Shown piece after piece: positions 21,077 through 38,585 of a DNA stretch of 64,000 nucleotides (position 1 is its first letter; each line of letters begins with the position of its first letter). A program made the translations under genes and the position numbers. Under the pieces are notes generated by a model. The model had not been told where the DNA came from. It did no database searches and worked only from the letters and a program-made list of their open reading frames with translations. This DNA is from Planctomycetota bacterium (GTDB taxonomy: Bacteria > Planctomycetota > Planctomycetia > Gemmatales > Gemmataceae). The stretch is from assembly GCA_016191165.1 (NCBI GenBank), contig JACPPF010000044.1, positions 1 through 64,000 on the forward strand. The letters are read 5' to 3'.

Positions 21077-22285
21077 ATGCGTGGAATGAATATCGCATTT
21101 TGCTACGAGAGCGTGCTGCCGGCGCGTGGCGGATGCGAAACCTACATCGCTGACCTGGCTCGACGACTTCTGGCCGATCGCCACGAGGTCCACCTTTACG
21201 CATGCCGCTGGGACGAACAGGCGCTTCCCGCCGGGATTCATTATCACCAGATTCCCACCAGCTGGGCGCCGCGTTTTCTCAAGCCGTGGCGCTTCGGCAA
21301 ACGCTGTCTCGAGGCCATATCGCAAGGCAACCACGACGCCACGATTGGCTTCGACAAGACCTGGGGCCAGGATGTGCTTTACCCGCAGGGGGGCCTGCAT
21401 GTCGCCAGTGCCGAACACAATCTCCGCAAGCATTACAACCCGTTGGTCCGCCGCCTGGCTGGCGTCATCAAGTGGTTCGATGCCGCTCACTGGTCGTATT
21501 CGCTGCTCGAACGCAAGCAATACTTCGGCCAGCACGCGCCGCTGATCGTGGTCAACAGTTTCATGGTGCGGGATCATTTCCTCAGGCACTATCACACGCC
21601 GCCGGGCCAGATTCACGTGGTGCGCAGCTCCATCGATCCGCAGCGGTTCCCGGAACAGGACCGCCTGAAATGCCGGCTGCATTGCCGGGAGCAATACGGC
21701 ATCGCCGCGCACGAGGTCGTCGGCCTATTCGCGGCCATGAATTACCATTTGAAGGGTCTCGAACCGCTGCTGTATGCGACGCAGCGGCTCCTGCAACGGC
21801 CGGAGTTCGCGGGCGTCACCCCAGCGTTTCGGCTCCTCGTCGTTGGCAAGCCGGAGGCGCGCGCCTATGAACGCCTGGCGAACCGGCTCGGCATCCGCGA
21901 TTTCGTGCGTTTCGTGGGCTACTGCCCCGAGATGCGCAACGCTTATTTCGCCTCCGATTTTCTGGCTCACCCGACCTTTTACGATCCCTGTTCCCTGGTC
22001 GTGCTGGAAGCCCTGGCGTGCGGATTGCCGATCATCACGACCCGGTTCAACGGCGCCAGCGAATTGATGCACGCCGCCAGCCCGCAGCAAGAAGGGTACG
22101 TCTTGAGCGACCCGCACGATCATCACGAACTTGGCTGGTGCCTGGCCCAAATGCTCGATCCCGCGCGCCGCCACGCTTTTGCTCTGGCCGCCCGACGCAC
22201 CGCTATGCAATGGACCTTCGAGCAACACTATCGGCAACTCCTGGGCGTTCTGTCCGAAGCCGCGCAGCGCAAGCAGGCGGCATGA
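21077..22285 (+). CDS. GT4 family glycosyltransferase (WaaG-like)
   Basis: A 402-residue GT-B retaining glycosyltransferase, likely adding a hexose to the LPS core, as WaaG does next to WaaP in enterobacteria. The N-terminal A-F-C-Y-E-S-V-L-P-A-R-G-G-C-E-T-Y acceptor-domain loop and the C-terminal nucleotide-sugar site D-P-C-S-L-V-V-L-E-A-L-A-C-G-L-P (E-x7-E type) are seen. No membrane segment is visible, so it is a peripheral cytosolic enzyme. ATG 21086 (M-N-I-A-F) is an alternative start. Last gene of the LPS run. Confidence 0.88.
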   Translation: MRGMNIAFCYESVLPARGGCETYIADLARRLLADRHEVHLYACRWDEQALPAGIHYHQIPTSWAPRFLKPWRFGKRCLEAISQGNHDATIGFDKTWGQDVLYPQGGLHVASAEHNLRKHYNPLVRRLAGVIKWFDAAHWSYSLLERKQYFGQHAPLIVVNSFMVRDHFLRHYHTPPGQIHVVRSSIDPQRFPEQDRLKCRLHCREQYGIAAHEVVGLFAAMNYHLKGLEPLLYATQRLLQRPEFAGVTPAFRLLVVGKPEARAYERLANRLGIRDFVRFVGYCPEMRNAYFASDFLAHPTFYDPCSLVVLEALACGLPIITTRFNGASELMHAASPQQEGYVLSDPHDHHELGWCLAQMLDPARRHAFALAARRTAMQWTFEQHYRQLLGVLSEAAQRKQAA

Positions 22286-22301: not shown

Positions 22302-22362
22302 GTCCGAGCCTGAGCGCCAGCGAAGGACCGAGCGCGCCCTTCGCTGGCGCTCAGGCTCGGAC
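22302..22362. repeat. 25-bp perfect inverted repeat
   Basis: Arms 22302-22326 (GTCCGAGCCTGAGCGCCAGC plus GAAGG) and 22338-22362 pair perfectly with an 11-nt loop, among the most stable hairpins in the window. It begins 16 nt after the stop of the glycosyltransferase, so it may also terminate or protect that mRNA's 3' end. Confidence 0.93.
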
Positions 22363-22376
22363 AATTTCGATGAACC

Positions 22377-22423
22377 AAAAAAAACACCGCCGCGCGCGAC
22401 CGGGGGCAGGTCGCGCGCGGCGG
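22377..22423 (-). terminator. strong intrinsic terminator of a minus-strand transcript
   Basis: A 15-bp perfect GC stem (22387-22401 with 22409-22423, 7-nt loop) is followed on the minus strand by TG and eight T residues (22384-22377). It cannot serve the plus-strand genes. It therefore marks the 3' end of a transcript coming from about 22900. Confidence 0.85.
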
Positions 22424-22870
22424 CGCTTCGAGCGCGAGCTTCCCGGGCTCACGCCATCGGTCGGCCAGGCACAAGTTTCTCCAAGCGTTCACTCTTGCTT
22501 CCGGCACTCCGGAAGTAAATCGCTCCTTGCCGTGCCAACCGAATCTGGAGGGCCGAAGCCCCCATGGAAGCCGACCCCGAGTAGAGGGCCGATCGGGTAA
22601 CGTCCTGCGGGCGCCCCGTGTCGCCCGATCCCGGCTTCGCGAACTGCGACAGCGTTCTTCACCGCCTTTCCATGCGGACCGATGAAATGGCGCCAGACCT
22701 CCCGGCGAGCCCTGGCCAGTCCGACTCAAATTAGGATCGGACCCGGCCGCACACCACTGTTCAAAAGGGCAATCACGACTCATTCGGATGACCAAAGTTA
22801 CACTGCGAGAAAACCCGGTTATCCGCCCAATGGCCGCTTTTTCAGGGCCGCGTCCAGACTCTAGAGGCGC
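22385..22870 (-). ncRNA. candidate structured non-coding RNA of about 450-490 nt
   Basis: Between the minus-strand terminator and about 22870 no frame has protein-like composition, yet the minus strand ends in a consensus terminator. Local hairpin-forming words are plentiful, for example GGGGGCTTCGGCCCTCC, CTTCCGGAGTGCCGGAAG, and GCCAGGG.../...GCGCC segments. I searched by eye for RNase P RNA (GAGGAAAGTCC), tmRNA (T-arm GGTTCGA), SRP RNA (GGAAGCAGCC) and 6S motifs and found none convincing. The 5' end is not defined. Confidence 0.45.
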
Positions 22871-22878
22871 CCGGGTTA

Positions 22879-22971
22879 GCGTGAAGTCTCAGAAAATATT
22901 TTTCATGCGTGAACGAGATTAGCTCTCACGTTTTCAGCTGACCGGGTTTGGCCACGTTTTGGAAGCGTGAG
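22879..22971. promoter_or_regulatory. three spaced GCGTGA[A/G] boxes
   Basis: GCGTGAA at 22879-22885 and 22907-22913 and GCGTGAG at 22965-22971, with a reversed CTCACG at 22925-22930. The 28- and 58-nt spacings and the AT-rich stretch between boxes (AGAAAATATTTTTCAT) fit a regulatory region upstream of the candidate minus-strand RNA. Confidence 0.35.
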
Positions 22972-23007: not shown

Positions 23008-23068
23008 ACGAGCCGCGACGGTAAAGGAGCGGAAGCGAGTCCAACGCTCCCTTACGGTCGCGGCTCGT
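23008..23068. repeat. 24-bp inverted repeat, GCGACCGTAAGGGAGCG family
   Basis: Arms 23008-23031 and 23045-23068 pair at 22 of 24 positions around a 13-nt loop. The right-arm word (GCGACCGTAAGGGAGCG when reversed) differs by one base from the element at 38530-38585. It ends about 35 nt before the tgt -10 box. Confidence 0.88.
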
Positions 23069-23113: not shown

Positions 23114-24226
23114 ATGCCATTTCGTTTTGAGTTGCTGCAAACCGAGAAAAAAGCCCGGCGTGGCCGCTTCCATACGGCACACGGCGTGGTGGAAACGCCG
23201 GTGTTCATGGCGGTCGGCACGCAGGCGACCGTGAAAGGCTTGACCCCCGATCAGCTCGATGCCGCCGGCGTGCAAATGCTGCTGGGCAACACCTATCACC
23301 TGACGCTACGTCCCGGGGACGAGGTGATCGCCCAGCTGGGGGGCCTGCATCGGTTCATGGGATGGCGGCGTCCCATCCTCACCGATAGCGGCGGATTTCA
23401 GATCTACAGCCTGGCCGCCAATCTCAAGATCGACGATCACGCCGCCGTCTTCCGCTCTCACCTCGATGGCGATCTGCTTGAGCTTACGCCGGAGAAAGCG
23501 ATTCGAATCCAGGAGAACCTGGGCTCGGACATCGCGATGTGTCTGGACGAATGCCCGCCCTTCGACACCCCGGCCGAGTATCGAGCCGTTGCCGTGAACC
23601 GCACATTGCTCTGGGCCGAGCGCTGCCAGGCGGCTCATCGTGCTGCGGATCAAGCTCTCTTCGCCATCGTGCAGGGTGGAACCGACATCGCATTGCGGAC
23701 GCGTTGTGCCGAGGCGCTCGCAAAACTCAACTTCCCCGGCTACGCACTGGGCGGCTTCAGTGTGGGCGAAACCCCCCAGCAGATGGCGGCCGCCCTCGAG
23801 CCGTCCGCGGATGCCCTCCCTGCCGACAAGCCCCGCTATCTGATGGGGGTCGGAAAGCCGCTGGATCTGTTGCTGGCGGTGGCGCGCGGCATCGACATGT
23901 TCGACTGCGTGATGCCGACGCGCAACGGTCGCAATGCGACCGCGTTTACCGGGACCGGGCAGGTGAAACTTCGCAACGCCTGCCACAAGCGAGATTCGGG
24001 ACCCCTGGAGTCCGATTGCCCTTGCCCGACCTGCACCCAGTTCAGTCGGGCCTATTTGCACCATCTTTTTTTGGCCGAGGAGATGCTGGGCCCAACGCTG
24101 GTGTCGTTACACAACCTGGCTTTTTACAACCGCCTGATGGCCGATATCCGCCGGGCGATCGAGGAACAACGGTTCGGCCAGTTTTACGCGGATCGGCTTG
24201 CCCGCTGGGGGGGCGAATTTCTATGA
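23114..24226 (+). CDS. tgt: queuine/preQ1 tRNA-guanine transglycosylase
   Basis: Exchanges guanine-34 for preQ1 in tRNAs with a GUN anticodon. The 370-residue length is normal. Key parts are L-T-D-S-G-G-F-Q-I (Asp91, substrate recognition/general acid), I-V-Q-G-G for base binding, F-D-C-V-M-P-T-R-N-G with the nucleophile Asp, and the zinc site C-P-C-P-T-C...H. The start M-P-F-R-F-E-L-L is chosen over an upstream ATG-like codon because it matches the family. It heads the tgt-yajC-secDF cluster. Confidence 0.95.
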   Translation: MPFRFELLQTEKKARRGRFHTAHGVVETPVFMAVGTQATVKGLTPDQLDAAGVQMLLGNTYHLTLRPGDEVIAQLGGLHRFMGWRRPILTDSGGFQIYSLAANLKIDDHAAVFRSHLDGDLLELTPEKAIRIQENLGSDIAMCLDECPPFDTPAEYRAVAVNRTLLWAERCQAAHRAADQALFAIVQGGTDIALRTRCAEALAKLNFPGYALGGFSVGETPQQMAAALEPSADALPADKPRYLMGVGKPLDLLLAVARGIDMFDCVMPTRNGRNATAFTGTGQVKLRNACHKRDSGPLESDCPCPTCTQFSRAYLHHLFLAEEMLGPTLVSLHNLAFYNRLMADIRRAIEEQRFGQFYADRLARWGGEFL

Positions 24227-31885: not shown

Positions 31886-32098
31886 TCAGTCGATCGGTTT
31901 CGCCACCGCGTTGGAATTGGGTTCGGTGTCGGCAGGTTTTCCATGAATGGCCTCATAGACTTCCTGGCGATGCACCGGCACCTCTTTTGGCGCGACAATG
32001 CCGAGACGAACTTTGTCGCCGCGAATTTCAACGACGGTGACGGTGATGTCATTGTTGATTACAATGCTCTCATTCTTTTTTCTGGAAAGTACTAACAT
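31886..32098 (-). CDS. csrA: carbon storage regulator CsrA
   Basis: A 70-residue RNA-binding translational regulator. The core M-L-V-L-S-R-K-K-N-E-S-I-V-I-N and the C-terminal-strand P-K-E-V-P-V-H-R-Q-E-V-Y are canonical; Leu4 and Arg44-type residues of the RNA-binding faces are present. ATG 32098 with AAGAAGGA 9 nt upstream is chosen over an in-frame TTG three codons earlier. Unlike in many bacteria, no flagellar genes or fliW adjoin it. It has its own terminator, so it is probably monocistronic. Confidence 0.95.
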   Translation of the reverse strand: MLVLSRKKNESIVINNDITVTVVEIRGDKVRLGIVAPKEVPVHRQEVYEAIHGKPADTEPNSNAVAKPID

Positions 32099-38529: not shown

Positions 38530-38585
38530 GAACCGCGAGCGTCAGGGAGCGGTCTGGACAAGACGCTCCCTGACGGTCGCAGTTC
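38530..38585. repeat. 22-bp inverted repeat, GCGACCGTCAGGGAGCG family
   Basis: Arms 38530-38551 and 38564-38585 pair at 20 of 22 positions; the inner 12 bp (CGTCAGGGAGCG) are perfect. The word differs by one base from the element at 23008-23068 and resembles the in-gene insert at 8201-8232. Confidence 0.88.

Follow-up and report, generated by a model that had tools for sequence, protein, structure and literature searches.

The 800-nt gap between the end of a GT4 glycosyltransferase gene at 22285 and the start of tgt near 23114, in the 64,000-nt stretch of Gemmataceae DNA analysed here (the window), probably encodes a free-standing, trans-acting structured noncoding RNA, whose transcript we predict and whose function we infer from sequence. 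The case for a real gene comes from its relatives rather than from the window alone. These relatives occur in 20 of 95 family genomes and in 8 of 39 genera, and the letters of their stems vary while the pairing is retained; the existence of the RNA family is well supported.

A sequence-only reading had proposed a minus-strand structured RNA at 22385-22971. Comparison with relatives supports the RNA and its strand, but makes it shorter, at about 22723-22377. In agreement with the reading, no convincing gene was found between 22285 and about 23114. The minus-strand terminator that it described, with a run of eight T, is also present, as a strong terminator-like hairpin with 20 counted pairs (15 G-C) and a loop of 7. 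In contrast, the density of hairpin-forming words, which had been offered as evidence, did not stand up. The folding energy of a 607-nt stretch had z = -1.63, with 1 of 20 shuffles equally good, and that of a 471-nt stretch z = -0.31, with 31 of 100 shuffles equally good; neither is significant, and single-sequence folding energy was dropped as evidence for an RNA.

Two further elements of the gap lie outside the RNA. The three GCGTGA[A/G] boxes of the sequence-only reading are real (plus strand, at 22879, 22907 and 22965, within 93 nt; the whole window has 11 on this strand), but they lie 150-250 nt upstream of the RNA and are possibly control sites for tgt. In addition, two long inverted repeats flank the RNA gene, at 22302-22362 and 23008-23068 (25 bp perfect; 24 bp at 92%). 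A pair related to the second recurs in the window at 38530-38585, and these repeats are probably a repeated hairpin element.

The features of the locus, together with the csrA gene of the window, are as follows. The 5' end of the RNA at about 22723 is placed from the -10-like box, and the 3' end from the T run.

22756-22765, minus strand: upstream element TTTGAACAGT; related AACAGT, AACACT or GTYCASTGG in 9 of the 12 sequences examined
22730-22735, minus strand: -10-like box CCTAAT, register chosen by eye; CATAAT in 8 of the 12 sequences examined
22377-22723, minus strand: candidate structured RNA gene, predicted transcript of about 347 nt; homologs in 7/7 genus genomes and in 7 further genera
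22692-22716, minus strand: P1, 5' hairpin GCCAGGGCTC .. GTCTGGC, read from the sequence; variable among relatives
22665-22671, minus strand: GGAAAGG, conserved single-stranded segment, from sequence comparison
22567-22638, minus strand: P3 domain, three-way (P3/P3a/P3b), outer helix GAAGCC/GGCTTC
22591-22630, minus strand: P3a hairpin GATCGGG/CCCGATC, loop GGGG at 22617-22614
22575-22588, minus strand: P3b hairpin CCCT/GGGG, CTACT in the loop; CURCU in most relatives
22459-22540, minus strand: P4 domain, basal helix GGTTGGC/GCCGACC and GAGCG/CGCTT; from structure counts, model R1 and base-pair probabilities
22515-22498, minus strand: P4 inner hairpin CTTCCGG/CCGGAAG
22433-22454, minus strand: P5 hairpin, loop CCGGGAA; YGGGAA in 20/20 sequences
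22377-22428, minus strand: intrinsic terminator, GC-rich stem 22428-22382, T8 at 22384-22377
31946-32098, minus strand: csrA gene

The loops GGGG, CURCU and YGGGAA recur among relatives, and the P4 domain also carries conserved CAAGAG and CGGAGAA-type segments. The P3 outer helix is 100% paired in six genus sequences; unrelated complementary arms take its place in other genera, and P3 is almost lost in G001 and G009. Base-pair probabilities computed from single sequences back most helices in most sequences: they reach at least 0.78 for P4c in 11/11 sequences, at least 0.75 for P4b in 10/11 and at least 0.85 for P5 in 9/13, whereas only 6/13 sequences give the P3 outer helix a probability above 0.9.

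Compensatory base-pair change was found in the alignments of the 3' domain and of P5. In the 3' domain, 89.7% of cells pair; both sides have changed in 9 pairs, where shuffled versions average 3.9 and slid ones give 2-6. The P5 alignment, which comprises 15 of the 20 sequences (near-identical rows of genus g19 and of G003 were omitted), contains 23 doubly changed cells, where shuffles give 10.1; when slid by +1 it scores about equally, because the loop length varies. The YGGGAA loop is closed by at least five contiguous pairs in 17 of the 20 sequences, compared with 4.2% of 644 unrelated YGGGAA sites. The middle-domain alignment is weak when taken alone, its covariation being modest (3 doubly changed pairs against 1.9). 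Across genera, P3, P3a, P4b and P5 have arms that are unrelated yet complementary. Note that these arms were picked by hand and pair almost fully by construction, so that only the contrast with swapped arms, which pair at 45-78%, is informative. A MAFFT alignment across genera misaligns the P3 domain and was left out of the counts.

Within the genus of the window, all six other members were matched in a DNA search covering 59 genomes; a single 31-nt match in a different genus was set aside. Model R1, built from the 3' domain of the seven genus sequences, identified a single copy per genome in 7/7 genus genomes and none in a whole-genome search of the other 88 family genomes, in which the first look passes only top candidates. 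The RNA adjoins tgt in G001, G004 and G006, as in the window, and tgt is absent from the fetched stretches of G002, G003 and G005; the RNA therefore persists when this neighbour changes.

The copies in other genera were found by testing places upstream of a hydrolase gene, except that of G009, which came from a pattern scan. For this purpose R1 was joined by R2, a model from a non-overlapping part of the RNA built without G018. Five further genera have covariance-model support, and the two models match in the correct order and strand in other genera. The E-values given here are approximate and hold for the small sets that were searched. G018 gave R1 at 16.8 bits (E 0.14) and R2 at 24.7 bits (E 5e-5), next to each other and in order; G082 gave R2 at E 1e-4 and R1 at E 0.0027; G084, R2 at E 2.8e-7 and R1 at E 0.0021; G023, R2 at E 0.0015 and R1 at E 8.9e-5; and G009, after the pattern match, R1 at E 2.5e-4 and R2 at E 0.024, the two matches overlapping slightly. 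In genus g19, R1 matched weakly at one consistent place (E 0.19 to 2 in G106, G107, G108 and G109; 0.2 in G110), and the same elements were recognised in all seven genomes by reading the sequences and with a structural descriptor. This descriptor was designed after the sequences had been seen and missed G000 (the genome of the window) and others; it had one match outside RNA loci in 1.42 Mb (L159). Only reading by eye revealed the copy in G034 (genus g29), which neither R1, R2 nor the descriptor reported.

Whole-genome model searches outside the genus, whose first look forwards only top candidates, gave nothing convincing. They missed true copies (G018, G001), and absence elsewhere is therefore weak evidence. 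The 14 best extra R2 matches with loci (L091-L104, in G045, G010, G021, G041, G052 and others) were rejected, having no R1 match in place. A pattern scan of 102 order genomes matched nine; apart from the genus members, G018 alone was upheld, and the additional matches in G002, G003, G011, G091 and G101 were dropped. Among the matches listed from a pattern scan of GTDB contigs, 80 loci were tested with R1 and two were true, both of them genus members. The same kind of scan matched 9 of 327 class genomes; G116, G307 and G283 were dropped after model tests. Weak single matches in G087 and G063 were also dropped, as the second model did not match at the site and the DNA, read by eye, resembles coding sequence. 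Separately, L285 (G017), upstream of the hydrolase gene, shows weak R1 (9.9 bits) and R2 (6.9 bits) matches and a terminator-like hairpin, and is possibly a strongly diverged copy of the RNA.

According to our best explanation, the minus strand would be transcribed from the RNA's own putative promoter just upstream of 22723, and the transcript would stop at its own terminator, at 22377. A consensus scan of the window's gap found no sigma-70 consensus promoter pair. The promoter comparison covers 12 sequences, eight sequences of g19 and g29 being without an assigned box; in it, the upstream element lies 19-22 nt before the -10-like box and is missing in G001, G004 and G082. The transcript would fold into a 5' hairpin, the three-way P3/P3a/P3b domain, a long, internally looped P4 arm and P5. 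It would then act in trans, the likeliest roles being those of a protein-bound regulatory RNA or of an RNP-type RNA; we propose them because the stems drift while specific loops stay fixed, a pattern that suggests protein or tertiary contacts. Several observations count against this explanation: the folding energy is ordinary, the scan found no sigma-70 consensus promoter here and the -10-like box was assigned by eye, the linkage to a hydrolase gene described below would fit a cis role too, the covariation of the middle-domain alignment alone is modest, G034 is known by eye only, and G000 and G002 have at least one sense frame without a stop. Regarding the last point, a protein-coding gene was rejected, as stops close all three sense frames in seven of the nine sequences counted.

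A secreted alpha/beta-hydrolase gene directly follows the RNA, in the same orientation, in 17 of the 20 genomes. Within the genus, this gene is downstream of the RNA in five of the six other genomes; the protein has a signal-peptide-like start and a match to Pfam Abhydrolase_1 just at the cut-off. The arrangement, together with the terminator at the end of the RNA, would suit a cis-acting leader or attenuator, in which the RNA senses a signal and the terminator decides on read-through into the hydrolase gene. We nevertheless consider such a leader unlikely, since the RNA is not always upstream of the hydrolase. In G000 the RNA is on contig C21, with a convergent glycosyltransferase gene as its downstream neighbour, and the hydrolase is on C178; in G009 the two are on C368 and C186, again unlinked. 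G003, where the RNA is at a contig end and no hydrolase gene was found in the assembly, counts neither way. Moreover, the hydrolase keeps a promoter-like sequence of the TTGACC..TTAAGATC type between the terminator and its own start, and this sequence is also found in genera where the RNA was not found at that place. At the G003 contig end (L015, 1-205), a transposase-like start is seen by eye past the RNA terminator, in the place of the hydrolase.

Linkage to the RNA is scattered over the hydrolase tree, with four label changes, at least three of them forced, among 32 proteins (32 of 38 rows; those without a recognised motif fell out). The linkage in 17 of 20 genomes suggests an old association and does not imply a functional tie; the hydrolase may be functionally linked to the RNA, which is nevertheless independent of it. 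In G000 and G009 the RNA stands away from a fixed downstream gene, and this independence together with the terminator argues for the trans-acting RNA that we prefer.

A more specific form of the trans-acting reading is possible, although we hold it only tentatively. The RNA may be the ancient, Gemmataceae-specific core of a ribozyme or ribonucleoprotein, in which the loops GGGG, CURCU and YGGGAA would serve as fixed contacts to protein or within the tertiary structure. Its promoter would be its own and under the control of an activator, and the secreted hydrolase, next to which it usually lies, would tie it functionally to processes of the cell envelope.

A CsrB-like sponge, which would titrate CsrA through GGA motifs in its loops, is quite improbable. 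All 95 family genomes have csrA, at least one copy each, including the gene inside the window, and a GGA lies within the invariant YGGGAA loop. However, the presence of CsrA in 95/95 genomes does not track the RNA and is uninformative, and nine sequences have only 1.8-3.5 GGA motifs per 100 nt, a density presumably far below that of CsrB; we rejected the sponge on these few motifs. Besides, the complex conserved P3/P4 structure would be unnecessary for a sponge.

That the RNA is catalytic is very doubtful. A multi-domain fold with conserved loops and internal loops would befit a ribozyme, but no known ribozyme family matches, a self-cleavage site is not apparent, and P3 is the domain nearly lost in G001 and G009.

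It is highly improbable that the RNA is a strongly diverged member of a known family, even though RNase P RNA and tmRNA are similar to it in size. Rfam 15 has no match at the gathering score in the whole window or in eight relative loci, and a permissive scan of the gap gave only sub-threshold matches. The sequence-only reading had recognised no RNase P, tmRNA, 6S or SRP motif, and these identities are ruled out by the copies elsewhere in G000, at C161, C129, C158 and C15, respectively, the SRP RNA copy being 0.7 bits below the curated score. As a side observation, about 900 nt beyond its main RNase P RNA copy, G007 has a second, weaker match (G007:C1:4869928-4870109), whose 33.5 bits fall short of the curated score. 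Finally, that the gap holds no gene but drifting intergenic DNA carrying a terminator and repeat hairpins, as the repeat-like flanking inverted repeats and the ordinary folding energy might suggest, has practically no probability, being contradicted by conservation across genera with compensatory change.

The earlier suggestion of a possible new class is borne out by the comparison, and on sequence grounds we regard the RNA as a candidate new class, claiming no new kind of mechanism. To our knowledge, few noncoding RNAs have been described in planctomycetes, whose cell biology is unusual. The retention of a multi-domain RNA in eight genera, with its stems rewritten, strongly suggests that it has an important and specific function. 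A search of open-licence papers, which was not exhaustive, found no report of such an RNA, nor did passages of PMC2864571 show one.

Among known systems, cis-regulatory leaders share with the RNA of the gap a terminator and the usual position upstream of one gene; it differs from them in being unlinked in G000 and G009 and in having a neighbour with its own promoter-like sequence. Like the sponges CsrB and RsmZ, it is a terminated RNA of similar size with a GGA in a loop, in a genome that has CsrA, but it has few GGA motifs and a highly constrained multi-domain fold. 6S RNA (RF00013) acts in trans, has its own transcription unit and is bound by protein. We propose a likeness in these three respects, although the RNA of the gap lacks the long single-hairpin architecture and the true 6S RNA is at G000:C158. 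OLE, GOLLD, ROOL and raiA are large, structured RNAs of bacteria whose roles are unknown or only partly known. Although the RNA described here differs from them in having no Rfam match, another architecture and an occurrence seen only in Gemmataceae, it is like them in being several hundred nucleotides long and free-standing, with a complex conserved structure and a restricted lineage.
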